A DNA stretch of 25,824 nucleotides. Origin: a virus. Positions within the stretch are counted from its first letter, which is position 1; each line of letters opens with the position of its first letter. Made by a program: the position numbers and the translations under genes. The notes under the pieces are model-generated. The model was not told the DNA's origin and did not search any database. It worked only from the letters and a program-made list of their open reading frames with translations. The DNA is taken from positions 1-25,824 of IMG/VR virus record IMGVR_UViG_3300038461_000380; one strand, written 5' to 3'. Positions 561-21,080 of this stretch are shown here, one piece after another.

Positions 561-1427
561 ATGAAAATTCTTATAACGGGAGGATTAGGTTATATAGGTT
601 CTAAGTTAGTTTTAAAATTGAAAGAGAGTGGGCACGAAGTAGAAGTATTTGATAGACCAAAAGACATCTTAAGTAAAGAGCAATTAGAAGAAGCGATTAT
701 AGGAAAAGATATTGTATATCACTTGGCTGCGTTGGCGGAGATAAAATATACAGATGCTCATCCAGAAGAAACATTCGAAACTAATATCGTAGGAACAAAC
801 AATATAGCACAGATATGTGCAGAAAAAGGCGTAATGTTAAATTTTGTTTCAACTTGTTGTATTTATGGAAACCCATTAGAAAATCCATCAGTTGAAGATA
901 GATTGATAAATCCTACTGATACTTACGCAATGTCAAAAGCTTCTGGTGAATATTTAGTTAAAATGTGGGGATTAGCAAAGGGTTTAAAATATAACATTTT
1001 AAGATTTGGGACGGTTTACGGACAGAGCTTAAGTAGAGAGATGAGATATGATATGTGCATACAAAAATTTCTTGATTCTGCCCATAAAAAAGAAGATATC
1101 TATATCACTGGAGATGGAAAACAGTCAAGAAACTTTATACATATAGATGATTTGGTTAGAGGTTTAGTTTTGATTACTGATAAAAATATAGTTGGAGAAA
1201 CAATAAATTTGGCTGGAAAAGATAAAATTTCTATCAATAAAATAGCTGAATATGCTCAAAGATTCGGGGCGGGAAGTATAACTTATATACCTTCAAGGAA
1301 AGATGATTTTGAAGACCAAAATGTATGTTTAAAAAAGGCAAAAAGGTTGCTTAGCTGGGAGCCAAAGATAAAATTTGAGGAAGGTATAAAAGATTTCTTT
1401 AATTGGATTTTAACATGTTATCAATAA
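561..1427 (+). CDS. NAD-dependent nucleotide-sugar epimerase/dehydratase (extended SDR)
   Basis: A complete 288-residue extended short-chain dehydrogenase/reductase. The N-terminal GGLGYIG (residues 7-13) is the glycine-rich NAD(P)-binding loop, YHLAALA (53-59) is the conserved second strand, STCCIYG (97-103) carries the catalytic Ser/Thr, and YAMSK (122-126) is the YxxxK catalytic pair. RNFIHIDDLVRGL in the C-terminal half matches the RxxxHVDDxA sugar-binding region. It probably epimerises or dehydrates a UDP- or dTDP-sugar in the cytoplasm. The ATG at 561 follows a 26-nt A/T-only gap with no Shine-Dalgarno sequence. The 3' end overlaps the next glycosyltransferase by 13 nt, so the two are probably co-translated. 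Substrate is not determinable by eye. Confidence 0.88.
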   Translation: MKILITGGLGYIGSKLVLKLKESGHEVEVFDRPKDILSKEQLEEAIIGKDIVYHLAALAEIKYTDAHPEETFETNIVGTNNIAQICAEKGVMLNFVSTCCIYGNPLENPSVEDRLINPTDTYAMSKASGEYLVKMWGLAKGLKYNILRFGTVYGQSLSREMRYDMCIQKFLDSAHKKEDIYITGDGKQSRNFIHIDDLVRGLVLITDKNIVGETINLAGKDKISINKIAEYAQRFGAGSITYIPSRKDDFEDQNVCLKKAKRLLSWEPKIKFEEGIKDFFNWILTCYQ

Positions 1428-2188
1428 TAATTCCGAGTTTTAAAGATGAATATTTGCATAATACGATTGATTCTCTTTTGAAAAATGCAAAAGGGGATAT
1501 TGAAATTATTCCAGTTTTAGATGGATGCTGGACAGAAAAACCGATAGCAGATGATGAGAGGATAAAAATAGTGCATTTAGGAAAATCAAGAGGCATGCGT
1601 GATGCTATAAATGCTGGCGTGGCTGTTGCGAAAGGTGAATTTTTAATGAGGGCTGATAGTCATTGTTCCTTTGGCGATGGATACGACGTGATACTTGAAA
1701 AGGATTGTCAGCCGAATTGGATAATGACACCGAGGAGATATTTTTTAGACCCTACAAAATGGCAACTTATGGATATCCCGCCTGTTGATTACATGAAACT
1801 TAAAATAGTTAACTATGAAAGAAGTCAAAAGTTTTCAGGTGTTAATTGGGAAAGGCCAGATAGAAAGGATATAATGGTTGATGAAACAATGGCAATGCAA
1901 GGTTCTTGCTGGTTTATGCCTCACAAGTGGTGGGATAATGTTATTGGGGAGTTGCAATCGGAGGGATATGATACCCATTATCAAGATAGTCACGAGATGG
2001 TTTTTAAAACTTGGAAGGCAGGTGGAAAGTTAATGGTTGATAAGAATACTTGGCACTCTCATAAGCATAGAGATTTTCCCAGAACTCATGGTTATGGCGG
2101 TGAGGCGGCGGATAAGTGCTTTGCTTACTCTTTAAGTGTTTGGAAAGATTATTACCAAAATGAAATTTTACCTCTTTGGAAGATATGA
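1415..2188 (+). CDS. Family 2 glycosyltransferase with polypeptide-GalNAc-transferase-like motifs
   Basis: 257 residues from the ATG at 1415; an in-frame TTG 12 nt upstream would add four residues and is less likely. The N-terminus LSIIIPSFKDEYLHNTIDSL is the classic GT2 (GT-A fold) start, VLDGCW (34-39) is the nucleotide-binding strand, and RADSHC (79-84) supplies a D81-S-H83 metal site in place of the usual DxD. The later DSHEMVFKTWKAGGKL and NTWHSH (211-216) align with the acceptor/metal region of GT27 polypeptide N-acetylgalactosaminyltransferases, where an invariant His follows a W-x-x-GG-x-L block. Known for that family: transfer of GalNAc to Ser/Thr. Whether this protein glycosylates a polypeptide or a glycan is open. 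The stop overlaps the next ATG as ATGA. Confidence 0.82.
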   Translation: MLSIIIPSFKDEYLHNTIDSLLKNAKGDIEIIPVLDGCWTEKPIADDERIKIVHLGKSRGMRDAINAGVAVAKGEFLMRADSHCSFGDGYDVILEKDCQPNWIMTPRRYFLDPTKWQLMDIPPVDYMKLKIVNYERSQKFSGVNWERPDRKDIMVDETMAMQGSCWFMPHKWWDNVIGELQSEGYDTHYQDSHEMVFKTWKAGGKLMVDKNTWHSHKHRDFPRTHGYGGEAADKCFAYSLSVWKDYYQNEILPLWKI

Positions 2189-2907
2189 AAAATTTATTGA
2201 TTTATTTAAGTCCGAATAAATGTTTTAGTAAAGAATGTGAAACTTTGGCTAAAATACAGATTGAAAATAGTATTGAATTGGGATGGAAAAAGGAAGACAT
2301 ATTGCTCGTTACCAATTTTGATTACAAGTATATGGGAGTTAAGTCCGAGGTTGTTGAAGATGACAATTATTGTGCCTTAAGACCAAGGTCGATAAATTCA
2401 ATAATTATTCCTCACTTGATAGAAAAGGGGATAATAAAAGATAGTTTTATTTACTGGGTTCATGATTTTGATGTTTATCAGATGAATTATTTTAGTGAAG
2501 ACATCCTTGGATTAGAAGAATTTGATGTTGGATTAACGGATTACGGTTGGAAGGAAAACTGGTGCATGGGTAGCTTTTTTGTAAAAAAGGGTTGCAAAGA
2601 AATTTTTATAGAGTTGAAAAAAATAGTTGAAAAGAACATAGAGGACGAGAAGGCAATGATGCAAATTACTTCGAAGTCTTGGGTTATGAACAGATGCAAA
2701 AGAATGAACATAACTTATGACTTCGGAATGAGAAATATTGTTTCTAATTATGGAAAAGCAGAAAAGCCTTTAAAAGTTTTACACTTTCATCCATATTATA
2801 GGTGGGTTAAAACTTTGGATATTTTTATGTATGGAAAGAATGAATTACAAATGCCTTTGATGGATAAAAGGTTAATAAAATTATTTAATAAATATGATAT
2901 CAGGTGA
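2185..2907 (+). CDS. Putative glycosyltransferase-like protein of unrecognised family
   Basis: 240 residues from the ATG at 2185, which overlaps the previous stop as ATGA (the frame is open further up from a TTG at 2176). I do not recognise the family. FIYWVHDFDVYQM (88-100) places D95-x-D97 after a hydrophobic strand, which is the usual position of the nucleotide-sugar/metal motif of GT-A glycosyltransferases. NWCMGSFFVKKG follows where an acceptor loop would be expected. The N-terminus LLIYLSPN is a first-strand-like segment. Position between a GT2 and another glycosyltransferase-like gene, with translational coupling on both sides, supports a role in glycan assembly. No signal peptide or membrane segment. 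Function is inference from context plus one motif. Confidence 0.5.
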   Translation: MKNLLIYLSPNKCFSKECETLAKIQIENSIELGWKKEDILLVTNFDYKYMGVKSEVVEDDNYCALRPRSINSIIIPHLIEKGIIKDSFIYWVHDFDVYQMNYFSEDILGLEEFDVGLTDYGWKENWCMGSFFVKKGCKEIFIELKKIVEKNIEDEKAMMQITSKSWVMNRCKRMNITYDFGMRNIVSNYGKAEKPLKVLHFHPYYRWVKTLDIFMYGKNELQMPLMDKRLIKLFNKYDIR

Positions 2908-3577
2908 TATTTGCATATTATTCCTTACGGTTAATAAAGTTCCAAAATACTGGTCTGAATTTCAAAGAAAAGTCTTGATGGAGGCCGCTGGAAAAATACC
3001 GATAATTACAGTTGCAAAAGAAAAACAGGATTGGGGTTCTGTTAATTTGATTCAAGAGGAGCCGATTTCCGTTTCTAATATTTATTGGCAAATGTTGAAG
3101 GTAGCTAAAACCGTTGATACAAAATATGTGGCAATAGCCGAAGACGATGTTTTATATCCTTATGAGCATTTTCACTCTTTCAGACCACCATTAGATACTT
3201 TTGCCTACAATTCAATCCGTTGGCAAGTTCATACATGGGAGCCGACATATTATTGGAGGTCGAAGATAGCTAATTATTCCCTTATTGCTCCGAGGGAGTT
3301 GATGATTGAGGCGTTGGAGGAAAGGTTTAAAAAGTATCCAGATGGTATCCCAGAAGAAAAGGCAGGGGAGCTTGGCAGGTGGACAGTTGAAAAAAGGTTG
3401 AAGGTTGAGGTCAGAAAGGCGATTGAATTTAGGACTACGATAGGATTGGTTTGTGTCCATCATGACTTTGGAATAGACCCATTAGAAAGAAATCATAGAA
3501 AGAGAATGGGAATGTTGAGAGCTTTTGATATTCCTTATTGGGGTCGTTCGGAGGATGTAATAAAAAAATTTATATGA
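2894..3577 (+). CDS. Glycosyltransferase-like protein, paralog A of a three-member family
   Basis: 227 residues, ATG at 2894 overlapping the preceding gene by 14 nt. A first strand (ICILFLTVNK) is followed by YVAIAEDDVLYPYEHF (78-93), whose EDDVLYP block recurs as ESDCLYP in the gene at 4865 and ENDVLYP in the gene at 6634. The C-terminal IPYWGRSEDVIKKF likewise matches IPYWGTAEEVRKKY at the end of the 4865 gene. The hydrophobic strand plus acidic [DE]xD-type motif fits a compact GT-A nucleotide-sugar transferase, but this is structural reasoning, not a family match. The stop overlaps the methyltransferase start as ATGA. Confidence 0.55.
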   Translation: MISGDICILFLTVNKVPKYWSEFQRKVLMEAAGKIPIITVAKEKQDWGSVNLIQEEPISVSNIYWQMLKVAKTVDTKYVAIAEDDVLYPYEHFHSFRPPLDTFAYNSIRWQVHTWEPTYYWRSKIANYSLIAPRELMIEALEERFKKYPDGIPEEKAGELGRWTVEKRLKVEVRKAIEFRTTIGLVCVHHDFGIDPLERNHRKRMGMLRAFDIPYWGRSEDVIKKFI

Positions 3578-4113
3578 CAATTAAGTTTTATAAATACGAC
3601 AAATACGGGGCTTATCACTGGCATTGGTATCAATATAAGAAGACATATATTGACCATGTAAACAAGGTTAAAGATTGGATTAAGGAAAAAAATGTTCTTG
3701 ATGTTGGGGCGGGAGATGGTTTAATAACAAGCATATTGGGAGCAAGAGGCATAGATAATGAGCCTGCTGGGGTTAAATTGGCTCGAGAAAGAGGTGTAGA
3801 TGTTATATTGGGAGATGCTCATAATCTACCCTTTAAAGATGAAGAATTTGAAGCTGTTTTTATGGGTGATACCTTAGAACATTTAGAATTTCCTGAAAAG
3901 GCAATAAAAGAGGCAAGAAGGGTTTTAAAGCATTATCTTTATTTGTCAACACCAATGAAGGGAGGCGGTTGGGATGTTTTACAATATAGAGAATGGAGCC
4001 CAGAGGAGTTAAAAGAAATGGTTGAAAATCAAGGTTTTAAAATGATTGGAGATATGGAAATGGTAGGTAAAAGAAGTTTTAGAAAATCTTATGCTAAATT
4101 TGAAAAAATATGA
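3574..4113 (+). CDS. Class I SAM-dependent methyltransferase
   Basis: 179 residues from the ATG at 3574 (ATGA overlap with the upstream stop; the frame stays open from a TTG at 3538, which I reject). VLDVGAGDG (41-49) is motif I of the class I S-adenosylmethionine fold, GIDNEP (59-64) supplies the acidic residue that binds the ribose, and GDAHNLPFKDEEF (80-92) with LEHLE (101-105) are motifs typical of the Methyltransf_11 group. Such small methyltransferases in glycan clusters usually O- or N-methylate a sugar. The acceptor is unknown. It is followed with an ATGA overlap by the radical SAM gene. Confidence 0.85.
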   Translation: MTIKFYKYDKYGAYHWHWYQYKKTYIDHVNKVKDWIKEKNVLDVGAGDGLITSILGARGIDNEPAGVKLARERGVDVILGDAHNLPFKDEEFEAVFMGDTLEHLEFPEKAIKEARRVLKHYLYLSTPMKGGGWDVLQYREWSPEELKEMVENQGFKMIGDMEMVGKRSFRKSYAKFEKI

Positions 4114-4892
4114 AGATACAAATGGAAAGTTCTACTTTTTGCAATGCGAGATGTTTATTTTGTCCGAGATATGAAATGAAAAGGAAAATGGGAGAGATGT
4201 CAGATGAGATATTTTATAAAGTAATAAAAGATGGAAAGGAAATAAACGCTAAATTTTATTCGCCCTTTCTTAATGGAGAACCTTTCGTTTTTCCGAGAAT
4301 ATGGGAGTGGCTTGATTATATGAAAAAGGAGGAAGTTCAGTTTTCTCTTTATACTAATGCTGAGTTTATGGACGTTGATAGATTGGTAAGTTATCCAAAT
4401 GTAAGATATGTTAATTGTTCTCTTAACGGAGCTACAAAAGAAACCTACGACAAGATTATGAGAGGACCTGACTATGAAAGGTCAAAGAAAAATATTGAAG
4501 AATTAATAAAAAAAGCAAATTTTAGGGTTCAAGTTTCAATGGTTGTTACAGAGGATAATGTTAAAGAGATTGACCAATTTAACAAAATGTGGGGTAAATA
4601 TTCAAAAATGAGGTCTTTTAAGAATTGGGGCGGAGATAGGCACTCTTCTTTTGAAGATAAAGGAGAGAAAAAACCTTGTTGGGCGGTTCTTAATACTATG
4701 GTTATACTTTGGGATGGCAGGGTTGTCCCTTGTTGTATGGACTATGATGGTAAATTAATACTTGGAGATATAAAAAAACAATCATTAAAAGAAATATGGC
4801 ACAATTCATATTGGCTGAGAGAAAAACATCGGAAACTGGATTTCAGTATGATTCCTTGCAAAGAATGCAACTACAACGCCGTTTGTCAATAA
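4110..4892 (+). CDS. Radical SAM protein with SPASM-type C-terminal cysteines
   Basis: 260 residues, ATG overlapping the upstream stop as ATGA. FCNARCLFC carries the CxxxCxxC [4Fe-4S] site (C11, C15, C18) that cleaves S-adenosylmethionine reductively. FLNGEPF (53-59) is the GGEP-like SAM-contacting motif and YTNAEF (81-86) the next core strand. The C-terminal region has C190, C208-C209, then C250-x2-C253-x5-C259, consistent with an auxiliary-cluster SPASM or twitch domain. SPASM enzymes modify peptides (including Ser oxidation in sulfatase maturation) or act in sugar and cofactor pathways. The location inside a glycan cassette does not distinguish these. The start lies three residues from the conserved region, as is common for short phage and surface-polysaccharide members. 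Confidence 0.85.
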   Translation: MKIQMESSTFCNARCLFCPRYEMKRKMGEMSDEIFYKVIKDGKEINAKFYSPFLNGEPFVFPRIWEWLDYMKKEEVQFSLYTNAEFMDVDRLVSYPNVRYVNCSLNGATKETYDKIMRGPDYERSKKNIEELIKKANFRVQVSMVVTEDNVKEIDQFNKMWGKYSKMRSFKNWGGDRHSSFEDKGEKKPCWAVLNTMVILWDGRVVPCCMDYDGKLILGDIKKQSLKEIWHNSYWLREKHRKLDFSMIPCKECNYNAVCQ

Positions 4893-5506
4893 TATACTAT
4901 ACAGCTAATGCAGAGAATATTGAATTTGAAAATAAAATTATTGATAATTTGAAATTGCAAGCAGGAGGAATAACGATTATAAGCGTTTCAAGAAAATCTA
5001 TTGATTTAGGAAAAAATATTTGTGTTGGAGAAAAACCCATATGTTATTCAAGCGAATTAAAGCAGATTTTAATAGGATTAAAAGAGGCTAAAACAGAATT
5101 TTGTTTGGCGGCAGAATCGGATTGTCTTTATCCGCCAGATTATTTCCAATTTATTCCAGAAATAAAAGATAGGGTTTATAGATATAATAATATCAAAATT
5201 CATTTTGAGGGCAGGGATAAATTCTGGAAGAAAAGTTGGGTAGAAGCAGGTCAAATTTGTGGAAGAGATTTTTGGATTAAAAGCATAGAAAAAGTTTTGT
5301 CTGGACAGAAAGATTGGGAGCCTATTAAAGTTAATCCCCCTTTTGTTTTCGATACAAAAGACAAATATGTTTTTTCAGGAGAAAATCCAATACTTTATTT
5401 TAAGACAAGACAGGGAATAGGTTTCAAGACAGGCTTTATACAGGGTTCATCAGAAGAAATTCCTTATTGGGGAACAGCAGAAGAAGTAAGGAAAAAATAT
5501 TTATGA
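4865..5506 (+). CDS. Glycosyltransferase-like protein, paralog B of a three-member family
   Basis: The open frame extends up to 4796, but that would overlap the radical SAM gene by nearly 100 nt, so I start at the ATG at 4865 (213 residues). A TTG at 4883 is an equally plausible start and would place LSIIYYTAN at the N-terminus, like GIIYYTDN in the paralog at 6634. Shared features of the family are a first strand IIYYT, the acidic motif ESDCLYP (84-90) after a hydrophobic strand, and IPYWGTAEEVRKKY at the C-terminus. The role is most likely transfer of a sugar by a GT-A-like fold, but the family is not one I can name. ATGA overlap with the next gene. Confidence 0.55.
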   Translation: MQLQRRLSIIYYTANAENIEFENKIIDNLKLQAGGITIISVSRKSIDLGKNICVGEKPICYSSELKQILIGLKEAKTEFCLAAESDCLYPPDYFQFIPEIKDRVYRYNNIKIHFEGRDKFWKKSWVEAGQICGRDFWIKSIEKVLSGQKDWEPIKVNPPFVFDTKDKYVFSGENPILYFKTRQGIGFKTGFIQGSSEEIPYWGTAEEVRKKYL

Positions 5507-6015
5507 ATATAAAATTAAATAAAACTGATTTATTTTTAGGAAAAAATTATACCACCCACATTCCAATGCTTTTAAAAGCAGTTCAAATGACCGATGGAGC
5601 AGTATTGGAACTTGGAGGAGGTTTATTTAGCACACCATTATTGCATTGGCTTTGCTCTGAAAGCAGAAGAAAATTAATCACTTATGAAAGCAACAGAGAT
5701 TTTGAAAAGTTTCTTAGAACATTTTTCAGTAGAACACATCGTATTATATTTATTGATGATTGGTATAAAATTGATTTAAGGGGTCATTGGAGCGTAGCTT
5801 TTATAGACCATTCTCGTGGAAACGAGGGGGTTGAGGGCAGGAAAAAAGATGCTTTAAGGTTGAAAGATATTGCCGATTTCATTGTTTTACACGATACAAA
5901 TGAAAAAGAATATGTTAGAGATAAGAAGTTTTGGTCGAACTTCAAGTATATTTATCACTGGACTTGGTGCACACCAAACACCAGTATAGTGAGCAATTTT
6001 TATGAAATTAAGTGA
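5503..6015 (+). CDS. Putative class I SAM-dependent methyltransferase
   Basis: 170 residues starting at the ATG that overlaps the upstream stop (ATGA). VLELGGGLFST (34-44) is a recognisable glycine-rich SAM-binding motif, E62 in LITYESN is the ribose-binding acid at the end of strand 2, and AFIDHSRGN (99-107) plus FIVLHDTNE (126-134) resemble motifs IV and the LHD segment seen in FkbM/Methyltransf_24-like enzymes. The protein is short, with no extra domain. A methylation step on a glycan is inferred from the neighbouring glycosyltransferases. Acceptor unknown. Confidence 0.65.
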   Translation: MNIKLNKTDLFLGKNYTTHIPMLLKAVQMTDGAVLELGGGLFSTPLLHWLCSESRRKLITYESNRDFEKFLRTFFSRTHRIIFIDDWYKIDLRGHWSVAFIDHSRGNEGVEGRKKDALRLKDIADFIVLHDTNEKEYVRDKKFWSNFKYIYHWTWCTPNTSIVSNFYEIK

Positions 6016-6631
6016 AGGAATAAACATTATAAGTGGAAGACCAGGGGAAATTCCCGATGCTTCCAGAAATGATTTCCCTGAATTTTTTAGGGAAATGGGT
6101 TTTAAGTCAGGTGCAGAAATAGGAGTTTATAAGGGAGAATATACGAAAATTTTAGCAAGTTCAGGATTGGAAATTTATGCAATTGACCCATGGCGTATTT
6201 ATAGGGATTATGGAAATCCAAGAGGTCAAAAAAGGTTAGACTTTCAATATGACCATACTTGTAGATATCTTTCCGATTGTCCAAATGTAAAAATTGTTCG
6301 AAAAACATCTTTAGAAGCATTAGAAGATTTTCCCGATGGTAGTTTGGACTTTGTTTATATAGACGGAAATCATCATTTTGAGTATGTTGCCCAAGATATA
6401 GTTGAATGGACAAGAAAAGTAAGGAAGGGTGGAATTGTTTCAGGACATGATTATATTTACACCAAGTCAAGGTCAGTTAATGGAGGTTGTGATGTTCATT
6501 ATATAGTTGATGCCTATGTAAAGGCAGCAAAGATAAGAAATTTTTGGGTAGTTGGAAGAAAAAAATACATTGAAGGGGAAAAAAGAGACAGATGGCGTTC
6601 TTGGTTTTGGATTAAAGAGAAAGATTGGTAA
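6002..6631 (+). CDS. Class I SAM-dependent methyltransferase (Methyltransf_24-like)
   Basis: 209 residues, ATG at 6002 overlapping the previous gene by 14 nt. AEIGVYKGEYTKIL (38-51) is the SAM-binding loop in the form usual for sugar O-methyltransferases, IYAIDPW (58-64) places acidic D62, FVYIDGNHHFEYV (117-129) supplies the metal/acceptor-side Asp-His cluster, and GGIVSGHDY (143-151) is the strand-5 motif of this group. It is distinct in sequence from the methyltransferase at 3574 and closer in pattern to the one at 5503. It probably methylates a sugar hydroxyl. The 3' end is 2 nt from the next ATG. Confidence 0.8.
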   Translation: MKLSEGINIISGRPGEIPDASRNDFPEFFREMGFKSGAEIGVYKGEYTKILASSGLEIYAIDPWRIYRDYGNPRGQKRLDFQYDHTCRYLSDCPNVKIVRKTSLEALEDFPDGSLDFVYIDGNHHFEYVAQDIVEWTRKVRKGGIVSGHDYIYTKSRSVNGGCDVHYIVDAYVKAAKIRNFWVVGRKKYIEGEKRDRWRSWFWIKEKDW

Positions 6632-6633
6632 TT

Positions 6634-7356
6634 ATGAAAAAAGGAATAATTTACTATACGGATAACAGGTTGGGGGAGCCATTATTTTCTATTGTTCAGA
6701 AAAATATTTTAAATTCAGGTCTTCCGATTGTTAGTTGTTCATTAAAACCGATAAATTTTGGAAAAAATATAGTTGTTGAAGGGGAAAGTAGTTATCCGAC
6801 AATGGTTAGGCAAATTATTACTGCCTTAGAGGCAAGTGATTCTGATTATGTGTTTTTTTGTGAAAATGATGTTTTATATCCAAAAACACACTTTGATTTT
6901 GAACCAAAAAGGGATGATATTTTTTATTATAATGGAAATGTTTGGAGGTGGTGGATTTATGGTGAGAAAGCAATTACATATGATAGGTTGATTTCTCTTT
7001 CTGGTCTTTGTGTAAATAGAAATTTGGCATTAGAAAATTATAAAATTAGATTAAAAAAAATAGAGGAATTGGAAAAAAAGGAATTTGAAACTCATGAACC
7101 AAGGATAATTAGAGTTTGGGGTTATGAGCCTGGAACCAAAAAGAAAAGAAGAGGAGGCATTACAGATGATGATTTTGAAATGTGGTATTCAGAAGAACCG
7201 ATTGTTGATTTAAGACACGATAAAACTTTCACCTGTTCAAAAGTATCATTAAGTAATTTTAAACATCAACCAATTGGTTGGATAGAAATAACAATAGATA
7301 AAATAAATTATTGGAATTTAAGAGAAATATATAATTCATGTAATTGGAAAAATTAA
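6634..7356 (+). CDS. Glycosyltransferase-like protein, paralog C of a three-member family
   Basis: 240 residues from ATG 6634, 2 nt after the upstream stop; the in-frame TTG at 6625 overlaps the previous gene and is less likely. GIIYYTDNR (4-12) and YVFFCENDVLYPKTHF (72-87) match the IIYYT and [DE]xDxLYP blocks of the genes at 2894 and 4865. The C-terminal IPYWG is degenerate here (INYWN). It has an extra charged, Lys/Glu-rich segment around residues 110-160 not seen in the other two. Same tentative role as its paralogs; divergence suggests a different donor or acceptor. Confidence 0.55.
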   Translation: MKKGIIYYTDNRLGEPLFSIVQKNILNSGLPIVSCSLKPINFGKNIVVEGESSYPTMVRQIITALEASDSDYVFFCENDVLYPKTHFDFEPKRDDIFYYNGNVWRWWIYGEKAITYDRLISLSGLCVNRNLALENYKIRLKKIEELEKKEFETHEPRIIRVWGYEPGTKKKRRGGITDDDFEMWYSEEPIVDLRHDKTFTCSKVSLSNFKHQPIGWIEITIDKINYWNLREIYNSCNWKN

Positions 7357-7365
7357 CAAAAAAAT

Positions 7366-8343
7366 ATGAAAAACAAATGTGATTTAAGCATTTTAATTCC
7401 AAGTCGAAATGAGGAGTTTTTAAAAAATACAATAGATGACGTTTTACTTAACATAGAAGCAGATACTGAAATTATTGTTGTTTTTGATGGTCAATGGCCC
7501 GTAGAACCGATACCGCAAAATGAGAGGGTAAATATAATTTATGTTAAAGATTCTATTGGTCAAAGGGCAGCGACAAATCTTGCTTGTAAGTTAGCAAGGG
7601 GAAAATATGTAATGAAGATTGACGCTCATTGTTCTTTTGATAAGGGTTTTGACAGAAAAATGATAGAAATGTTTAATATGGCTGGTGAAAATACAACTAT
7701 GGTTCCAATAATGCGTAATTTATGGGCATTTGATTGGAATTGTAGAAGATGCGGTTGGAAAAAGTATCAAGGTCCTACTCCTAAAAGATGCCCTCAATGT
7801 AATGATTCCCGCTATATTATTAAAAAGATTATGTGGGTTGGAAAACATAATCCTCAGTCAACTTCTTATTGTTTCGATTCAGAACCGCATTTCCAGTATT
7901 TTGAGGATTATAAACATAGACCGATTTATGAAAAAGATAAAAAAGAAAAAGGCTTAACAGAAACAATGAGTTTGCAGGGTTCTTGTTTCATGTGCACTCG
8001 TGAAAAATACTGGGAATTAAATATTTGTGATGAAAGTTTTGGTTCTTGGGGTAATCAGGGTATTGAAGTAGCTTGTAAAACTTGGTTATCGGGTGGTCAA
8101 GTATTAGTTAATCATAATACTTGGTATGCACATATGTTTCGCACGCAAGGAGGAGATTTCTCTTTTCCATACGAACAGTCAGGAAGAGAAGTTTTAAAAA
8201 CAAAAAATAAGGTTTGGAATTTTTTTCTTGATGGAAAATGGGATAAACAAAAATTTAAAATGAGTTGGCTTGTTGAAAAATTTAATCCTGTGCCTGGTTG
8301 GACACAGGAAAGTATAATAAAATTAAAAAATAATAAAAATTAA
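7366..8343 (+). CDS. Family 2 glycosyltransferase with inserted zinc ribbon, GalNAc-transferase-like motifs
   Basis: 325 residues. LSILIPSRNEEFLKNTIDDV (7-26) is the GT2 N-terminus, VVFDGQW (38-44) the next strand, and KIDAHCSF (84-91) the D86-A-H88 metal site. WGNQGIEVACKTWLSGGQVL (228-247) followed by NTWYAHMFR (251-259) closely mirrors the WGGEN...W-x-x-GG-x-L...GHxFR region of GT27 polypeptide GalNAc-transferases. Between the two halves there is CRRC (126-129) and CPQC (142-145), a four-cysteine zinc ribbon not present in the sibling enzyme at 1415. The ribbon may bind acceptor or stabilise the fold. The gene starts 9 nt after the previous stop and ends 1 nt before the next ATG. Confidence 0.82.
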   Translation: MKNKCDLSILIPSRNEEFLKNTIDDVLLNIEADTEIIVVFDGQWPVEPIPQNERVNIIYVKDSIGQRAATNLACKLARGKYVMKIDAHCSFDKGFDRKMIEMFNMAGENTTMVPIMRNLWAFDWNCRRCGWKKYQGPTPKRCPQCNDSRYIIKKIMWVGKHNPQSTSYCFDSEPHFQYFEDYKHRPIYEKDKKEKGLTETMSLQGSCFMCTREKYWELNICDESFGSWGNQGIEVACKTWLSGGQVLVNHNTWYAHMFRTQGGDFSFPYEQSGREVLKTKNKVWNFFLDGKWDKQKFKMSWLVEKFNPVPGWTQESIIKLKNNKN

Positions 8344-8344
8344 T

Positions 8345-8632: not shown

Positions 8633-8633
8633 A

Positions 8634-11024: not shown

Positions 11025-11027
11025 TTT

Positions 11028-12793: not shown

Positions 12794-13626
12794 AAATTTT
12801 GATAATTGGAGGATGTGGGTTTATTGGTAGTCATTTAGTTGAAAAATTGAAAGATAATAAATTGGTTGTTTTAGATAATAATTTTACTGGTAATTATAAA
12901 ATAAAGGGAGTGAAATACATTAAGGGAGAAAGTAAAGATATAGACAAATTGATTAAATTTAAGCCAGATATTATTTATCATTTAGGAGAATATTCAAGAT
13001 TAATAACAAGTTTTGAAGACATAGAAAGAGTGATTGAATATAACGCCATAGGAACATTAAGGGTGGTTGAATTTTGTAGAAAAAATAAAATAAGATTGAT
13101 TTATGCTGGTTCAAGTTCAAAATTTGGCAACAAAGAAAGTCCATATAGTTTTATTAAAAGTTTTAATTCAGAATTAATAAAAAGATACGGAAAATGGTTT
13201 GGGTTGAATTATGCAATAGCTTATTTTTATAGTGTTTATGGAGAAAGAGAAATAAAAAATGGAAAATATGCAACAGTAATTGGAATTTTTAGTGAAAATA
13301 TTAAAAATAAAAAGACACATATTGTAAATAATGGAAAACAAAAAAGACACTTTACTAATGTTTCAGATATCATAGATGGATTATTGTTGATTGGTAAAAA
13401 AGGAAAAGGGGAATATTGTTTAGGAAACAGAAAAGAATATTCAATATTAGAAGTCGCTAAAATGTTTGGAGGAAAAATTAAAATTCAAAAAGGAAAAATG
13501 GGAGATAGTAGTTTTATAAAATTATACGATAAAAGAATAAAAAAATTAGGATGGAAGCCAAAAGTAAACCTAAGGGATTATATTAAAAATGAAAAAGATA
13601 TTGGTCGTAGTCTTAACGCATATTGA
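12790..13626 (+). CDS. NAD-dependent nucleotide-sugar epimerase/dehydratase (extended SDR)
   Basis: 278 residues, ATG overlapping the preceding stop as ATGA. GGCGFIG (7-13) is the dinucleotide-binding loop, YHLGEYS (63-69) the usual HxA-type strand in a slightly altered form, AGSSSKFG (106-113) carries the catalytic Ser, and YSFIK (119-123) the YxxxK pair. KRHFTNVSDIIDGLL matches the R-x-F-x-x-V-x-D-x-x-x-G substrate region. Clearly related to but different from the enzyme at 561. It is more Lys-rich and AT-rich than its neighbours. It probably makes the donor for the glycosyltransferase-like domain encoded just downstream, with which it overlaps by 38 nt. Confidence 0.87.
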   Translation: MKILIIGGCGFIGSHLVEKLKDNKLVVLDNNFTGNYKIKGVKYIKGESKDIDKLIKFKPDIIYHLGEYSRLITSFEDIERVIEYNAIGTLRVVEFCRKNKIRLIYAGSSSKFGNKESPYSFIKSFNSELIKRYGKWFGLNYAIAYFYSVYGEREIKNGKYATVIGIFSENIKNKKTHIVNNGKQKRHFTNVSDIIDGLLLIGKKGKGEYCLGNRKEYSILEVAKMFGGKIKIQKGKMGDSSFIKLYDKRIKKLGWKPKVNLRDYIKNEKDIGRSLNAY

Positions 13627-16600
13627 TTATTTTGGATTATTTCCCAGAGTTTGGGAGAATATTTTAAAATTGGATAAACCTGAAGGATACCAGGTTGATT
13701 TTATTGCGGTTACAAATTTTACAAACGACCAATCGGAAGAATTTAAAAAATACATAGCAGATAATAATATTGATTTAAGAGTGCCAGTTATAGACATCGA
13801 AGCATATAGAAAACAAATGCCCGATGGTTGGAAAGAAATGGTTGGAGAATTTACCGAAGAAGCTATATTTAAACAAATTGAAACAAGGAATTATTATAGG
13901 CAGATAATGATTGATGGCGGTTATGATTATATGCTTAATGTGGATGGCGATATTTTGCCACCTAAAAATGCTCTTATAAAATTGCTTTCAGATAATAAAG
14001 ATATAGTTGGTGCGTGGACTTATAGTAAAAGACACTGGGGTTGTTTGGCGATGCCAGATAAAATTAAATATGGGAAAGTTTACGAAGTGATAATGAATGG
14101 AACATATTGTTTGTTGGAAAATAGAAAGATAACAATGAATTATCCATATAGTGTTTATCAAGAGAAAGGAGTAACCGGAACCGATGATCATAAAAGATAT
14201 ATAGATATAAGAAAAAATGGTGACAAAATGTATGTAGACCCATCTATATACTGTGAACATTTGATAGAATCAACTGGTGAAATTTATAAACCAACAGAAA
14301 AACAACTTAAGGAACAATTTGCGGTAACCGATATAGTTTCTCAAGAAAAGGAAAATTTAAATTCTACAACTTTTAAATATACTCAAAAAGATAGCAATAA
14401 TGATAAATTATGTGAAGTAGAAGTAGGAAACATTAATAGTAAAAATTTTGAACCACATATTAAAATTTCAAAATGGGATGGAGAGGTAAATTTAGAAATA
14501 TTTTCTGATGGAAATGGAGATTATATTTTTGAAGAAGAAAAGCATAAACTTATTAATAAAAAACTTGAATATCATTTTTATCCTAAAAAACCAGAAGAAA
14601 TTGGATTTGATAATTGGTATGAACCATATGAAACTTGTTTGGAAGGTGGATTTGAATTTGAAGTTATATTAAAAGAAAAGCCAGCAAGCAATATTATTTC
14701 CCTTAACATAGGTGGAGATATCGATGATTTAGACTTTTATTATCAGCCTTTTTTAACATCAGACGAAAGATTGTTGATGGAGGTTGAAGGAAAATTATTA
14801 AGAATTCCAGAAGTGGAAGGTTCTTATGTTATTTATCATAAAACTAAAAAAGATGATTATTCTCAGATAGGTGGTAAAAACTATGGAACGGGAAAAATAG
14901 GGGATATCTTAAGACCCAGGATGATTGATGCAAACGGAAAAGAAGCATGGGGAATAATAAATATAGATACTAAAAATAGAAAATTAACTATAGAAATACC
15001 GCAGGATTTTTTAGAAAATGCAGTTTATCCAATAAGACATGCTACTGGATTAACATTTGGATATGGGACAGCAGGTGCTTCTTCAACTAATCTATCATCT
15101 ACATCAGATATAGCAGGTTCTGTTTTTGTTGGTGCAATAGGAACATCTCAAAATATGACAGCCGTTTGTAGTGGGACAGGAAAAGCTACAATGTCTATTT
15201 ATCTTGATACTTTATACACCAAAACAGATGTTACGGCTGAATTCACACCGCCAGCAACTAAAAGTTCAATAACACAAAATTTAGGAGGTGTAATTTTATC
15301 GGCTGTGAATTATTGGCTTTTGATGAGAGCTTCTGGTGCTGGGGGATCGGGTGAAGATTTAACTACTTTTTATTATGATGTCGGAAGTGCCAATCAAGGT
15401 TGTATAGCCGATTCTGGTTCTGACGCTCAAGGATATACCTGGCCTGCAAGTTTGTCTTTTACTTCTAAGAATTCAAATAAATATTCAATTTACTGCACAT
15501 ATACTACTGGTGTTAGCTTTAGTCCTTCTATTTCTCCTTCAATCTCTCCCAGCGTAAGTCCATCATCTTCTATTTCTTCCTCTTTTTCACCGAGCGTCAG
15601 TCCCTCAGTTTCCCTATCAACTTCATTAAGTCCCTCGCTTTCAACATCAATTTCTCCAAGTATAAGTCCTTCTGTTTCGCCTTCAATATCTTTAAGTCCA
15701 TCAATCTCTCCGTCAATATCACCAAGCATATCTCCTTCGTTTTCGCCTTCTGCGAGTCCCTCCTTATCGCCATCAATTAGCCCATCGGTTTCACCGAGTG
15801 TTTCAAAGAGTCCATCAATCTCTCCGTCAATATCACCAAGCATATCTCCTTCGTTTTCGCCTTCTGCGAGTCCCTCCTTATCGCCATCAATTAGCCCATC
15901 GGTTTCACCGAGTGTTTCTTTGAGTCCAAGTATATCCCCAAGTGTAAGTCCTTCCATCTCGTCATCAATAAGTCCAAGTGTTAGCCCCTCGATTTCACCC
16001 AGTATTTCTCCTTCTGTAAGCCCTTCAATATCGTTAAGCCCTTCATTTTCTCCTTCAATAAGCCCCTCCCTTTCACCGAGCATTAGCCCATCGGTTTCAC
16101 CGAGCGTTTCAAAGAGTCCATCAATTTCCCCATCAATTAGTCTATCAATTTCGCCTTCATTGTCTCCATCAACCAGTTCTTCGATAAGTCCCTCCGTAAG
16201 TCCACCGATAACAACAAATCTCAAAGTAAATTATTGGCATATAACACCTTTGGGTGCTCCAAGTTTTTCACCGAGCATTAGCCCTTCGGTGTCTCCTTCG
16301 GTTTCAATTTCTCCTTCTCTGTCTCCGAGTCTTAGTCCTTCTTTTTCTCCAAGCGTCAGTCCTTCGGTTTCATTCAGTCCTTCGCTTTCACCATCGATAA
16401 GTCCAAGCATTAGTCCCTCAATTTCGTTCAGTATTTCGCCCTCTATAAGCCCATCGGTTTCATTGTCTCCATCTTTAAGTCCCAGTATCTCTCCCTCTTT
16501 TTCACCGAGTCTTAGTCTCTCTGTTAGTCCTTCTTTAAGCCCATCGGTATCTATTAGCCCTTCTATTAGTCCAAGTATCAGTCCTTCGGTTTCTCAATCT

Positions 16601-18082
16601 CCCTCTCTTAGCCCAAGCATTAGCCCATCTGTAAGCCCAAGCGTTTCCCTTTCTCCTTCTTTAAGTCCGAGCGTCAGTCCTTCTATTAGTCCATCAATTT
16701 CAATTTCTCCTTCTCTTTCTCCAAGTATCAGCCCTTCTTTTTCGCCAAGCGTTAGTCCTTCGGTATCAATTAGCTCTTCCTTTTCGCCTTCTTTGAGCCC
16801 AAGTGTCAGTCCTTCTCTGTCAATTAGTATTTCACCATCAGTTAGTCCTTCTGTTTCTATTAGTCCTTCGTTTAGCCCAAGTTTGAGCCCCTCAATATCA
16901 CCCTCAATATCGCCAAGTATCTCTCCTTCGGTATCTCCTTCGGTTTCTTTGAGTCCTTCTATTAGTCCCTCTCTTTCGCCATCTTTGTCGCCCTCTCTTT
17001 CTTTTAGCATTAGTCCATCTATTAGTCCCTCTATTTCACTAAGTCCTTCTCTTTCGCCTTCAATTAGTCCAAGTTTGAGTCCCTCAATCTCTATTTCTCC
17101 TTCTATAAGTCCAAGTATTAGTCCTTCTGGTTTTTCTAAAAGTCCTTCTATTAGTCCATCTATATCTTTTAGTCCGAGTTTAAGCCCATCAATAAGTCCT
17201 TCTATTTCTAAGTCTCCGAGTATCAGCCCCTCTGTTAGCCCGTCTGTTAGTTTAAGTCCTTCGTTTAGTCCATCTGTTAGTCAAAGCGTTAGCCCTTCCA
17301 TTTCTATATCGCCTTCTTTCAGCCCGAGCATTTCTTTCTCTGTAAGTCCTTCAGTTTCGGCTTCACCATCTCTAAGCCCATCTATCAGTCCATCGGTTTC
17401 ACAGTCCCCTTCCTTGAGTCCCAGTATTTCTCCTTCGGTTAGCCCATCGGTTTCAATTAGCCCAAGTTTTTCACCAAGTATTAGTATCTCTATAAGTTCA
17501 AGTATTTCCCCTAGTATCAGCCCTTCTTTATCGCCAAGCATTTCGAAAAGTCCTTCTTTTTCTCCAAGTATTTCACCTTCGCTAAGTCCATCAATATCTT
17601 TAAGCCCTTCATTTTCTTTAAGTATTTCTCCAAGTTTGAGTCCCTCGGTTTCAAAATCACCCAGTTTCAGCCCATCATTAAGTCCTTCTATCAGTCCTTC
17701 TGTTTCTTTATCGCCCAGCTTTAGCCCTTCTTTTTCGCTTTCAATCAGTCCTTCTGTTTCTCCAAGCATTTCAATATCGCCAAGTATCAGTCTTTCATTG
17801 TCGCCATCAATTAGTCCTTCGGTAAGTCCAACGCCTCCTCCATTTGTTTTGGAAACTTTGGCGGGAAATTCTGTCTTGGAATTAGTCAAAGAAAACACCC
17901 TGTCTGGGTTAACTATAGTAGAGAAAGGAAGGCCTTGCCCCGTTGAACTTGTTTCTGTGATTAGAACACCATTGGAAACAGAAATTATTGAAATTGAAAG
18001 GACGCCCTTAAAGACAGAGATAATTGAAATCAAAAGAACACCATCGGAAACAGAAATAAAAATAAAAGATTGTGGTTTTTAG
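13589..18082 (+). CDS. Giant fusion: glycosyltransferase-like domain + beta-rich domain + long Ser-Pro repeats
   Basis: 1497 residues in one open frame. Residues 1 to about 240 look like a GT-A glycosyltransferase: KKILVVVLTHIDYFGLFPRV, then YMLNVDGDILPP (114-125) with D119-G-D121, then CLAMP and YCEHLIE, where H224 is a candidate third metal ligand. Residues about 258-640 are beta-rich (FEPHIKISKWDGEVNLEIF, LEGGFEFEVILKEKP, LDFYYQPFLTSDE, EGSYVIYHKTKKDD, GWTY-free AVYPIRHATGLTFGYG) and resemble a domain I associate with phage structural proteins. Residues 645-1414 are the Ser-Pro repeat, broken once at 873-891. Residues 1459-1494 are three 12-residue repeats (RTPLETEIIEIE type), ending in a lone Cys. 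No ATG lies between the glycosyltransferase-like and beta-rich parts, so the fusion appears genuine. Probably a virion stalk or fibre. Confidence 0.7.
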   Translation: MKKILVVVLTHIDYFGLFPRVWENILKLDKPEGYQVDFIAVTNFTNDQSEEFKKYIADNNIDLRVPVIDIEAYRKQMPDGWKEMVGEFTEEAIFKQIETRNYYRQIMIDGGYDYMLNVDGDILPPKNALIKLLSDNKDIVGAWTYSKRHWGCLAMPDKIKYGKVYEVIMNGTYCLLENRKITMNYPYSVYQEKGVTGTDDHKRYIDIRKNGDKMYVDPSIYCEHLIESTGEIYKPTEKQLKEQFAVTDIVSQEKENLNSTTFKYTQKDSNNDKLCEVEVGNINSKNFEPHIKISKWDGEVNLEIFSDGNGDYIFEEEKHKLINKKLEYHFYPKKPEEIGFDNWYEPYETCLEGGFEFEVILKEKPASNIISLNIGGDIDDLDFYYQPFLTSDERLLMEVEGKLLRIPEVEGSYVIYHKTKKDDYSQIGGKNYGTGKIGDILRPRMIDANGKEAWGIINIDTKNRKLTIEIPQDFLENAVYPIRHATGLTFGYGTAGASSTNLSSTSDIAGSVFVGAIGTSQNMTAVCSGTGKATMSIYLDTLYTKTDVTAEFTPPATKSSITQNLGGVILSAVNYWLLMRASGAGGSGEDLTTFYYDVGSANQGCIADSGSDAQGYTWPASLSFTSKNSNKYSIYCTYTTGVSFSPSISPSISPSVSPSSSISSSFSPSVSPSVSLSTSLSPSLSTSISPSISPSVSPSISLSPSISPSISPSISPSFSPSASPSLSPSISPSVSPSVSKSPSISPSISPSISPSFSPSASPSLSPSISPSVSPSVSLSPSISPSVSPSISSSISPSVSPSISPSISPSVSPSISLSPSFSPSISPSLSPSISPSVSPSVSKSPSISPSISLSISPSLSPSTSSSISPSVSPPITTNLKVNYWHITPLGAPSFSPSISPSVSPSVSISPSLSPSLSPSFSPSVSPSVSFSPSLSPSISPSISPSISFSISPSISPSVSLSPSLSPSISPSFSPSLSLSVSPSLSPSVSISPSISPSISPSVSQSPSLSPSISPSVSPSVSLSPSLSPSVSPSISPSISISPSLSPSISPSFSPSVSPSVSISSSFSPSLSPSVSPSLSISISPSVSPSVSISPSFSPSLSPSISPSISPSISPSVSPSVSLSPSISPSLSPSLSPSLSFSISPSISPSISLSPSLSPSISPSLSPSISISPSISPSISPSGFSKSPSISPSISFSPSLSPSISPSISKSPSISPSVSPSVSLSPSFSPSVSQSVSPSISISPSFSPSISFSVSPSVSASPSLSPSISPSVSQSPSLSPSISPSVSPSVSISPSFSPSISISISSSISPSISPSLSPSISKSPSFSPSISPSLSPSISLSPSFSLSISPSLSPSVSKSPSFSPSLSPSISPSVSLSPSFSPSFSLSISPSVSPSISISPSISLSLSPSISPSVSPTPPPFVLETLAGNSVLELVKENTLSGLTIVEKGRPCPVELVSVIRTPLETEIIEIERTPLKTEIIEIKRTPSETEIKIKDCGF
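15521..17830 (+). repeat. Ser-Pro repeat tract 2 (2.3 kb, in frame)
   Basis: About 770 residues of Ser-X alternation, X being Pro or Ile/Val/Leu/Phe with occasional Lys, Gln, Ala or Thr. The dominant unit is the 4-residue SPSx, with 2-residue phase inserts such as SLSPS or SKSPS. A 19-residue non-repeat island (PPITTNLKVNYWHITPLGAP) is encoded at 16205-16261 and may mark the join of two once-separate tracts. Codon use is mixed except for the 114-nt duplication listed separately. Confidence 0.9.
15695..15918 (+). repeat. Perfect 110-bp direct duplication, 114-nt period, inside Ser-Pro tract 2
   Basis: Bases 15695-15804 and 15809-15918 are identical by direct reading. They are separated by the 4-nt aaag, giving a 114-nt (38-codon) tandem period that keeps the frame. 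A further near-copy of part of it, 42 of 43 bases, lies at 16083-16125 (compare 15777-15819). Most of the tract is diverged at the DNA level, so this looks like a recent expansion. Confidence 0.92.
17963..18070 (+). repeat. Three 36-nt repeats at the C-terminus of the giant fusion protein
   Basis: Encodes three consecutive 12-residue units, RTPLETEIIEIE, RTPLKTEIIEIK and RTPSETEIKIKD. Alternating charged and beta-branched residues suggest short amphipathic beta-strands, possibly a trimerisation or anchoring foot for the Ser-Pro stalk. DNA identity between the units is only partial. Confidence 0.8.
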
Positions 18083-18084: not shown

Positions 18085-18114
18085 TTGACAGAATATTATT
18101 TTAAATGGTTTAAT
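18085..18114 (+). promoter_or_regulatory. Candidate sigma70-type promoter ahead of the head-tail/tail module
   Basis: TTGACA (18085-18090) is a perfect -35 hexamer. TTTAAT (18109-18114), 5 of 6 to the -10 consensus, follows after 18 bp, immediately downstream of the stop of the giant fusion gene and in the only sizeable non-coding gap. Predicted transcription start is about 18121. AT-rich DNA gives chance matches, but position and -35 quality favour it. Confidence 0.5.
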
Positions 18115-18165
18115 GAAAGTAGTATAAGTTATTGAAAATTAAAGGGGAGTTAAAAATCCCATTTT

Positions 18166-18224
18166 AAAAGCCGAGAGAAAGGAACAACCTCAATCGGAGT
18201 ATTTGTTTTTTTCTCTCGGCTTTT
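18166..18224 (+). terminator. Strong hairpin in the gap before the tail module: terminator or structured leader
   Basis: aaaagccgagagaaa (18166-18180) pairs perfectly over 15 bp with tttctctcggctttt (18210-18224) around a 29-nt loop. The 3' arm ends in a T run, which suits an intrinsic terminator for the upstream 18-kb region. However, the loop is long, the U tract is mostly part of the stem, and the ATG at 18236 starts only 12 nt downstream. If the promoter at 18085 is real, the hairpin is in the 5' leader of the tail operon and could be an attenuator or RNA-protecting structure. A smaller GGGG/CCC hairpin precedes it near 18144-18160. Confidence 0.6.
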
Positions 18225-18235
18225 TATTAAAAAAT

Positions 18236-19195
18236 ATGTCAACTTTAACACCAATAGAAATAGAAATTTCTTGGTCAACAAAATCAGGTGCAGTTAATTA
18301 TAGAATTTATAAAAGACAACCTAATTCTTATTGGTCTTTGATTGCCACCGTTGATGCTCCAACAACAAGTTATATTTTTAATGGATATGAAAATACTCAA
18401 TATATGTTTGGAGTAAGAGTTTGGAATGGTTCTTATGAGTCGGATTTGGCTTTGCAAAATTATCCACAAGATGTTTCTGCAACTTGGCAAACACCCTCCA
18501 ACACTCCAAGCGGTCTTCCAATGGTGACTCCGTATGATATTCAGTATGTTACCAAAGATGAATTTTTAACCTCTCCAATAGCAAAAGGATTGGGATATAC
18601 AGTTGATTCTATTGATTATACTGATGGAACTATAGACCACGCCCTTTTAAAAGCTTCGAGTTATGTTAATAGATATTGCCGTAGATATTTTAATAAAATG
18701 ACGATAGATGAAATTTATCCGAATGTTACTATACAGGTTTCTAATCCAAGATTAACTACTGTTCCTTTACGATATGGTCCCGTTCAGAACATAAATTCAA
18801 TAACAATACAGGTCTTGAAATGGTTTATTCCTTTTACAAAAGATTATTTAATACAACACCCTGAGCAGAGATTTTATCAAATAGTTCCAATGATTTCTTC
18901 TTCTGGAACCACTGGAAGTCCTATCCCCTCTGTTTTGCTGGAGCAATCAGATTTAGGAATAATTTGGACAAATTATACTTTTGGATATGATGTTATCCCA
19001 GAGGATATAAAGCACGCCGTTGAAGTGATAGCAGGACAGGAATTGGCAATGTTGAAACAAAATCCGATGGGAGCAACTTCTTTAAAGACGGGAAACTTTG
19101 CTATTACATTTGGAAAAAATGAAGAAAATCCTGTATTGAATGAAGTTAAAAGCATTTTAAATCCTTGGGTGCTTCATACCCTTCGCATGACATAA
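18236..19195 (+). CDS. Head-tail adaptor (gp6-like connector) with N-terminal fibronectin type III domain
   Basis: 319 residues from ATG 18236; the frame extends to 18203 but that start would lie inside the hairpin. Residues about 1-80 form a fibronectin type III domain: TPIEIEISWSTKSGAVNYRI, then YTF-like strands TSYIFNGYENTQYMFGVRVW and the SYESDLAL end. Residues about 95-319 resemble the HK97 gp6-type head-tail connector: a first helix after TIDHALLKASSYVNRYCRRYF, a beta-rich middle (NSITIQVLKWFIP), and IPEDIKHAVEVIAGQELAML plus NPVLNEVKSILNPW near the end. This protein would form the ring docking under the portal. The gene order that follows supports the call. The fused Ig-like decoration is unusual. 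Confidence 0.68.
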   Translation: MSTLTPIEIEISWSTKSGAVNYRIYKRQPNSYWSLIATVDAPTTSYIFNGYENTQYMFGVRVWNGSYESDLALQNYPQDVSATWQTPSNTPSGLPMVTPYDIQYVTKDEFLTSPIAKGLGYTVDSIDYTDGTIDHALLKASSYVNRYCRRYFNKMTIDEIYPNVTIQVSNPRLTTVPLRYGPVQNINSITIQVLKWFIPFTKDYLIQHPEQRFYQIVPMISSSGTTGSPIPSVLLEQSDLGIIWTNYTFGYDVIPEDIKHAVEVIAGQELAMLKQNPMGATSLKTGNFAITFGKNEENPVLNEVKSILNPWVLHTLRMT

Positions 19196-19209
19196 TAATA
19201 ATTATTTTT

Positions 19210-19599: not shown

Positions 19600-19601
19600 A
19601 T

Positions 19602-20407: not shown

Positions 20408-20444
20408 AGGTCGTATCTTTAAATAATTTTAAATAATAAAAATT

Positions 20445-21080
20445 ATGCCAGTAATTTCATCGGGGGTAGGAGTTTCAGAACGTTTAACTTTTAATTCAGG
20501 CTATCTTGATTTTGGCAATAGCAGTGATGGATATAAAAGATTGGTTGATGTGGAAAGCATTTCAGTTGATGTTTCTTTTGCCGAAAAGGAAGTTCGGCGT
20601 TTAAATTCAATAAAAATAGCAGCCCACAAAAGAGCTACTTTAAAAGTTAATTTAAAAGCTAAGACAAGGTCAGTAAATTGGGAGATACTTCTCAATGTTA
20701 TGGGAACGGATACTGTTGAGGCATCAGGCAGAACAGTTAGTATTTATAATGGACAAATTGCTACTGCCAATAATCCAGTTTTTACTTCTTATGTTGACGA
20801 TGATGTTGCGAATCCAGTTCAGTTTCAATTAACAGACGCCATAATAGTTTCTTCACCAACAACTTCTAATTTAGAGGATTTCGGGACAATGGATTTGGAA
20901 CTTTTCGCAAGGGATATAAAGATTTACACCGTCTCTACCTCGCCTTCAAAAAGTCCTTCTGCATCACCTTCTGTTAGTCCTTCTGTTTCAAAATCACCTT
21001 CGGCAAGTCCTTCAAAATCAACTTCAAAATCTCCTTCAAAATCACCTTCTGTTAGTCCTTCAGTTTCACCAAGTCCATAA
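20445..21080 (+). CDS. Tail tube protein paralog 1 with C-terminal Ser-Pro repeat tail
   Basis: 211 residues. Residues 1-163 are a tail-tube-like domain paralogous to the next gene: both begin MP-I, share ERL-FNSG-DFG, RRLNSIK-A-HKR, PVFT-YVDDDVA-P-QFQ and the final L-E-G--DL-L--RD motifs. Residues 164-211 are a perfectly alternating Ser-X tail (SPSKSPSASPSVSPS and similar) containing five Lys, unlike the more hydrophobic tracts elsewhere. If this is the major tube subunit, every ring would display a fringe of six such tails. Position between the tail terminator and the assembly chaperone fits a major tail protein. No Shine-Dalgarno sequence; A-rich leader. Confidence 0.75.
   Translation: MPVISSGVGVSERLTFNSGYLDFGNSSDGYKRLVDVESISVDVSFAEKEVRRLNSIKIAAHKRATLKVNLKAKTRSVNWEILLNVMGTDTVEASGRTVSIYNGQIATANNPVFTSYVDDDVANPVQFQLTDAIIVSSPTTSNLEDFGTMDLELFARDIKIYTVSTSPSKSPSASPSVSPSVSKSPSASPSKSTSKSPSKSPSVSPSVSPSP
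20934..21077 (+). repeat. Ser-Pro repeat tract 3 (144 nt) on the tail tube gene
   Basis: Encodes 48 residues with Ser at nearly every second position and Pro, Lys, Ala, Val or Thr between. Same architecture as tracts 1 and 2 but Lys-bearing and short, and it ends at the stop codon with no tip domain. Confidence 0.9.

Follow-up and report, generated by a model that had tools for sequence, protein, structure and literature searches.

Serine-proline lattices and a GT27-like glycosyltransferase cassette in a tailed phage: a putative mucin-type O-glycosylation system shared with Patescibacteria

The IMG/VR virus record IMGVR_UViG_3300038461_000380 (25.8 kb) was analysed over its positions 1 to 25,824, hereafter referred to as the window, and its head-tail adaptor, tape measure, Dit and tail-fibre genes identify it as a fragment of a tailed phage. 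From position 561 to 13626, sugar-modifying genes are interleaved with virion-type genes and with genes for proteins carrying long serine-proline (Ser-Pro) tracts, the entire block being encoded on the plus strand, like all further genes to which a strand was assigned. A preliminary description of this DNA had proposed that the phage glycosylates such tracts itself and had assigned them to three proteins, named here, as all genes, by their start positions; the tract positions given there were found to be exact. They comprise residues 51-250 of the protein encoded at 11028..12182 (tract at 11178-11777), residues 645-1414 of the 1497-residue virion-type protein at 13589..18082 (15521-17830) and residues 164-211 of the tail tube copy at 20445..21080 (20934-21077), with Ser contents of 102/200, 381/770 and 24/48, respectively. 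Within the tracts of 11028 and 20445 Ser occupies every second position without exception, and the 770-residue lattice of 13589 shifts its phase at a few breaks. The respective lattice scores (100, 145 and 24) exceed by far the maxima of 11, 11 and 8 obtained with 500 shuffles of the same composition. All six Ser codons are used within the tracts, and in 11028 each of the 38 SPSx units has a DNA sequence of its own (38 sequences), although only 5 peptides result. An origin of the tracts as plain DNA microsatellites is ruled out by this codon diversity, and the use of six Ser codons within scrambled unit DNA indicates that selection maintains the Ser lattice in the protein. Among the 26,312 x-positions of 146 tracts, 41% are occupied by Pro, whereby Pro at two successive x-lattice positions is avoided (observed/expected 0.09) and Pro at every second one is favoured (observed/expected 1.58). 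As a consequence of this spacing many Ser residues are preceded by Pro at -1 and followed by Pro at +3 (P-S-x-S-P), a sequence context favoured by animal GalNAc-transferases. As the BLAST low-complexity filter hides the tracts, these were sought by a DNA pattern scan instead; the Pfam and PHROG libraries and phage records revealed little about the tract proteins.

The gene at 7366..8343 encodes a 325-residue GT2 protein (PF00535, E 5e-13), whose similarity to the polypeptide N-acetylgalactosaminyltransferases (GalNAc-transferases, GT27), as noticed earlier, was borne out by its sequence profile and by the comparison of its predicted fold with the PDB. In the profile search the 14 top sequences were GT27 enzymes, the acceptor half of the domain being matched as well, and the AlphaFold model, built from 33 homologs with a predicted local distance difference test score (pLDDT) of 93, resulted in 50 listed PDB matches (best E 2e-17), every one of them a polypeptide GalNAc-transferase. 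The protein contains the D-x-H and W-G..E..W..GG..H motifs, and counting over 84 homologs identified the metal ligands D86, H88 and H256 in 84/84. Likewise the residues F176, Y178 and F258 are kept in 83, 84 and 83 of the 84 homologs; via an alignment with GalNAc-T1, and on the residue equivalence between GalNAc-T1 and T2 which we take to hold, they align with F280, W282 and F361 of GalNAc-T2, with the Trp being replaced by Tyr. In GalNAc-T2, Phe280, Trp282 and Phe361 recognise Pro-x-Pro (PMC4432651). The enzyme further possesses a zinc-ribbon-like insert (residues 127-145, with C142 found in 84/84 homologs) that is present neither in GT27 enzymes nor in the second GT2 protein of the window, and it is devoid of a C-terminal ricin-type lectin domain; fused homologs bear a GT-A domain. 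No match to a 7366-type enzyme was obtained among 50,697 phage records searched with tblastn. Judged from sequence and model, this compact, lectin-free GT27-like enzyme is proposed to start O-glycosylation on peptide, i.e., to serve as the initiating polypeptide O-glycosyltransferase.

The second GT2 gene (1403..2188, with either TTG 1403 or ATG 1415 as start; PF00535 3e-13) encodes a homolog of 7366, as hhalign to the 7366-type family (A1) revealed with an E of 5e-44. The preliminary description had considered both GT2 enzymes GT27-like, based on D-x-H and W-x-x-GG-x-L...H motifs. This holds fully for 7366, and 1403 shares the D-x-H and W..GG..H motifs; the equivalents of F176 and F258, and hence two of the three peptide-pocket aromatics, are missing from it together with the zinc-ribbon insert. 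For this reason 1403 is a poor candidate initiator, and its sequence suggests that it probably extends the glycan or takes another acceptor.

The epimerases, methyltransferases and radical SAM enzymes reported earlier from the same operon were confirmed by library matches or clustering: these are the nucleotide-sugar epimerase-like protein at 561..1427, which clusters with the nucleotide-sugar epimerase/dehydratase at 12778..13626 (1e-32), the SAM methyltransferase at 3538..4113 (Methyltransf_11, 5e-17), the Methyltransf_24 methyltransferase at 6002..6631 (PF13578, 3e-16), the radical SAM/SPASM enzyme at 4110..4892 (7e-18 and 7e-16) and the radical SAM enzyme at 12155..12793 (2e-14). A GT-A-fold glycosyltransferase is encoded at 6625..7356 (AlphaFold pLDDT 91), with GT-A enzymes as PDB matches (best E 5e-6), among them alpha-1,3-galactosyltransferase, TarP and the PBCV-1 capsid glycosyltransferase; its paralogs at 4796..5506 and 2894..3577 belong to the same family (A2), the fold of the latter being taken from the A2 model. 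Two further cassette proteins, one with no confident family match (2176..2907) and one methyltransferase-like by eye (5467..6015), recur in 23 and 35, respectively, of the 80 loci holding a GT2 relative of 7366. Over these 80 loci, the cassette core was found to consist of the 7366-type enzyme, Methyltransf_24 (66 loci) and the GT-A family (61 loci), which is represented here by 6625, 4796 and 2894. Matches to the Methyltransf_24 profile (6002 type) occur in 73 of 92 enzyme loci, and in 69 of the 92 the glycosyltransferase, a GT-A enzyme and a methyltransferase are found together. Moreover, 33 open reading frames (ORFs) combine the GT27-like and the 6625-type GT-A enzyme in one protein, the fusion at locus L287 adds a methyltransferase, and reading of the sequences revealed a C-terminal methyltransferase-like domain at L084, L089 and L097, too. 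These fusions suggest a line of enzymes that start, extend and methylate. Two genes downstream of 7366, directly before the gene with the first tract, a 796-residue protein (8634-11024) is encoded for which neither a family match nor a counterpart in the related loci was found.

Outside their lattices, the tract proteins match virion structural, baseplate wedge, internal virion and tail tube families and also bear lectin-like, CBM96, glycine-rich and beta-helix domains, so that the earlier assignment of the tracts to virion proteins is upheld. The C-terminal domain of 11028 is common to other tract phages, and the middle domain of 13589 was also found in another phage. The N-terminus of 13589 (13589-14300) carries an 'NVDGDILPP' motif that looks glycosyltransferase-like by eye (phrog_1574, 2e-4); as no significant match to the families A1 and A2 or to the PDB was obtained, a glycosyltransferase fused to its own substrate stays an unconfirmed impression. 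Further downstream follow the head-tail adaptor (18203..19195, phrog_442 1e-14), the tail tube copy 20445 with its tract-free paralog (21150..21626) and the tape measure protein (22195..24252, phrog_339 1e-11). No direct library match was obtained for 20445, whose tail tube label results from gene order, from the tandem paralog 21150 and from single-copy homologs in 11 related phages. These 11 relatives possess a single bare tail tube gene; the phage under study has two as tandem duplicates (20445-21626), of which the first alone carries the 48-residue C-terminal Ser-Pro tail. Among the 17 relatives collected with the head-tail adaptor (connector) as query, which include these 11 and of which some are short fragments, 16 are devoid of a tract and none possesses the enzyme; the tail-tube query found no viral relatives in that search.

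Using the enzyme as bait, tracts were identified in 21 of 26 viral loci, the remaining five being short or ending soon after the enzyme. For the reverse test, contigs were picked solely by a DNA pattern for SPSxSPSxSP, which favours TCN serine codons, and among the matches listed 50 were long enough; 50 contigs picked by a Gly-Pro pattern served as controls. A 7366-type enzyme (E < 1e-80) was found in 27/50 Ser-Pro contigs as compared to 0/50 controls (Fisher 1e-10; best control match 3e-7), these counts being slightly inflated by L076 and L079, which are near copies. The co-occurrence rises with tract length, as the enzyme is encoded in 26 of the 31 long-tract viral contigs versus 1 of the 19 short-tract ones (3e-8). 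Since a GT2 gene of any sort is present in 17/50 control contigs, general GT2 presence is not the explanation. A same-strand tract follows downstream of the enzyme in 41 of the 48 loci with 5 kb of downstream room, mostly within 400 bp and often in a gene touching that of the enzyme; tract and enzyme share the strand in 71 loci and are opposed in none. Co-occurrence of such GT2 genes with Ser-Pro tracts in related genomes, which the preliminary description had named as support for its proposal, is thus documented, and the refuting case named there, in which the tracts are common without such a glycosyltransferase, turned out to be rare among long-tract contigs.

With good confidence we regard the window as encoding an O-glycosylation system that is complete in itself and by which a tailed phage modifies its own Ser-Pro lattices. 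Starting from the computed lattice, fold, catalytic and pocket residues, linkage, fusions and distribution, we infer the transfer to Ser, the donor sugar, the order of the steps and the role of the coat as follows. Within the infected cell, 7366 would attach the first sugar to lattice Ser residues of the phage's appendage and tail-tube proteins, whereby its conserved aromatic pocket may read P-S-x-S-P as the animal GalNAc-transferases do. Next, the glycan would be extended by the GT-A enzymes 6625, 4796 and 2894, and methyltransferases are expected to cap or decorate it. In this way, the lattice proteins would form rigid mucin-like stalks, coated with sugar, on the virion.

That such a system is specific to phages, as had been assumed initially, was not confirmed: the scan of 84,980 prokaryote genomes identified 54 loci, of which 46 belong to named Patescibacteria, six to unnamed bins, one to Planctomycetota and one to a Nitrosotalea bin, the latter two possibly being binning errors. 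The scan rules out a phage-only system, the module being equally chromosomal in Patescibacteria and linked there to TatA/TatC of the twin-arginine translocation (Tat) pathway. Tracts are present in most of the closer cellular loci with enough flank, and the genes around these loci, which include those for dockerin, SH3 and surface proteins, are with few exceptions not phage genes. Near the cassettes of L268 and further chromosomal loci, carbamoyltransferases and asparagine-synthase-like proteins are encoded repeatedly, a hint that the sugars may be carbamoylated or amidated. In the tree of the enzyme, the phage under study sits among phages, next to Microgenomatia cells, a position from which a Patescibacteria host is deduced; the phage thus probably infects ultra-small Patescibacteria, as far as sequence relationships tell. 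Given that the deduced hosts are environmental Patescibacteria, the role in immune evasion considered previously has no basis. In cells, the same module together with tatA and tatC may work on chromosomally encoded surface proteins, and it was considered that the main role of the system lies in the making of Patescibacterial surface glycoproteins, served by a Tat exporter of their own, and that the phage copies mainly mimic or modify the host surface rather than coating virions. In favour of this, TatC was found in 29/40 enzyme-bearing genomes as compared to 24/287 in the phylum (8%) and 29/233 in the class, and the main phage clade has a clade of cells as its sister group. Moreover, four loci (L275:12430-17635, L279:13099-19040, L288:12093-20489 and L340:2-3029) share a conserved order, in which a Ser-lattice protein is followed by a small protein, both with a C-terminal 'RPK..GTxGFN..T..LEY..G..W' domain, and then by two tatA-like genes and tatC. 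This order suggests a dedicated Tat exporter for the lattice glycoprotein, although no obvious Tat signal was found in the cellular tract proteins; L340 is part of the same genome as L295, which has no tract nearby, and supplies tract, tatA and tatC on another contig. However, phage tracts are located on a tail tube copy, beside head-tail genes, and in other phages on proteins with virion or baseplate domains, so that coating of the virion is at least one role. A primarily cellular role with mimicry by phages is considered unlikely; it is compatible with virion glycosylation, since the chemistry is the same and just the main role differs. The joint occurrence of enzyme and tracts in unrelated viruses and on Patescibacteria chromosomes makes it very likely that prokaryotes and viruses possess mucin-like glycoproteins of their own. 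More tentatively, and with slightly less than even confidence, it is suggested that Patescibacteria and their phages share a prokaryotic mucin-type O-glycosylation, in which a cytoplasmic GT27-like enzyme acts on Ser-Pro lattices that cells would export by a dedicated Tat route and phages would use on their virions, with repeated exchange between both.

Less probable still is that the cassette makes or edits a lipid-linked or capsular glycan of the host surface, as in serotype conversion, and that the tracts, left unmodified, serve as flexible linkers which happen to be frequent among these phages. Epimerases, methyltransferases and GtrB-like glycosyltransferases in related loci would fit this idea, and a published survey assigns the sugar genes found in phages of Patescibacteria to auxiliary metabolism (PMC12911398). 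However, the best matches of 7366 are peptide and not lipid or glycan glycosyltransferases, the Pro pocket is conserved, co-occurrence depends on tract length and is accompanied by operon adjacency, and a linker needs no strict Ser conservation under scrambled codons, all of which renders this explanation improbable. That tract and cassette are hallmarks of one mobile lineage, travelling together with no mutual action, is very improbable: viral enzymes do fall into few clades rather than being scattered, but viral and cellular branches are intermingled in the tree, which requires at least seven changes of the viral/cell label, the tract phages possess several unrelated major head protein families, the association exists in viral and cellular settings, and independence predicts frequent loss of one partner. 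Several observations weigh against glycosylation of the lattices by 7366 as preferred here. The lectin domain of GT27 enzymes is missing, and the control contigs were picked irrespective of host lineage. Some long-tract contigs lack the enzyme, with L091 and L046 having other GT2 genes nearby and L040, L050 and L052, all of them fragments, giving no PF00535 match over the cut-off; conversely, the cellular loci L292, L298 and L303 encode the enzyme with no clear tract in reach. L040, L050/L335 and L052 may be exceptions or truncated genomes. The tracts of L046 and L091 are mixed with Ser-Pro-Thr and flanked by the other GT2 genes, which may represent a different type of enzyme acting on such acceptors.

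To our knowledge, GT27 mucin-type glycosylation of Ser-Pro-rich proteins is regarded as a eukaryotic trait, and within the open-licence literature searched, neither Ser-Pro tracts nor GT27-like enzymes were found to be described for phages or Patescibacteria. If the proposal holds true, a lectin-free GT27-like enzyme and its acceptor in one operon would allow mucin-like polymers to be made by a prokaryotic pathway and would be a simple tool for their production, specific genes and enzyme-substrate pairs would be named for surface building, sticking to cells and phage recognition in Patescibacteria, and the link to Tat points to a further way, next to the accessory Sec system, of exporting a sugar-covered protein. 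With the GT27 enzymes (GalNAc-T1, T2 and others) the 7366 type shares the GT-A fold, the D-x-H...H metal site, the W-G..E motif, the aromatic Pro-x-Pro pocket and a putative Ser-Pro-rich acceptor, but 7366 is about 17% identical, carries the zinc-ribbon insert, lacks the ricin-type lectin domain and is of a type that is often fused to a second glycosyltransferase and is prokaryotic and viral. In common with mycobacteriophages, whose virions are glycosylated on the C-termini of capsid and tail tube subunits according to Freeman et al. 2023 (cited in PMC12619734), a phage virion is the predicted target and a tail tube C-terminus a predicted acceptor site; the present system differs in its enzyme, for which the phage records searched contain no homolog, and in its putative acceptors, namely several proteins with long Ser-Pro lattices. 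The chlorovirus PBCV-1 encodes GT-A enzymes that glycosylate its virion, as is predicted for the phage studied here, and one of them is a fold match of the 6625 family, although it is an algal virus with other acceptors and enzymes. Closest in layout are the serine-rich repeat glycoproteins (SRRPs) of Gram-positive bacteria (Fap1, GspB, PsrP), which share Ser at every second residue, glycosyltransferase genes flanking the acceptor gene, stepwise extension (predicted here) and, with the cellular form, dedicated export (PMC5063993). Unlike these, the system possesses a putative GT27-like initiator instead of the GT4 pair GtfA/GtfB, a Pro-rich lattice and, apparently, Tat genes instead of SecA2/SecY2, and it occurs in phages too; among the 20 window ORFs scanned with Pfam, neither a GT4 match nor SecA2/SecY2 was found, and the cellular loci carry TatA/TatC. 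Having no lectin domain and no GtfA/GtfB, the system departs in one defining feature from mucin-type glycosylation and SRRPs each, and is most likely a cross of both, with the enzyme of the former and the layout of the latter.

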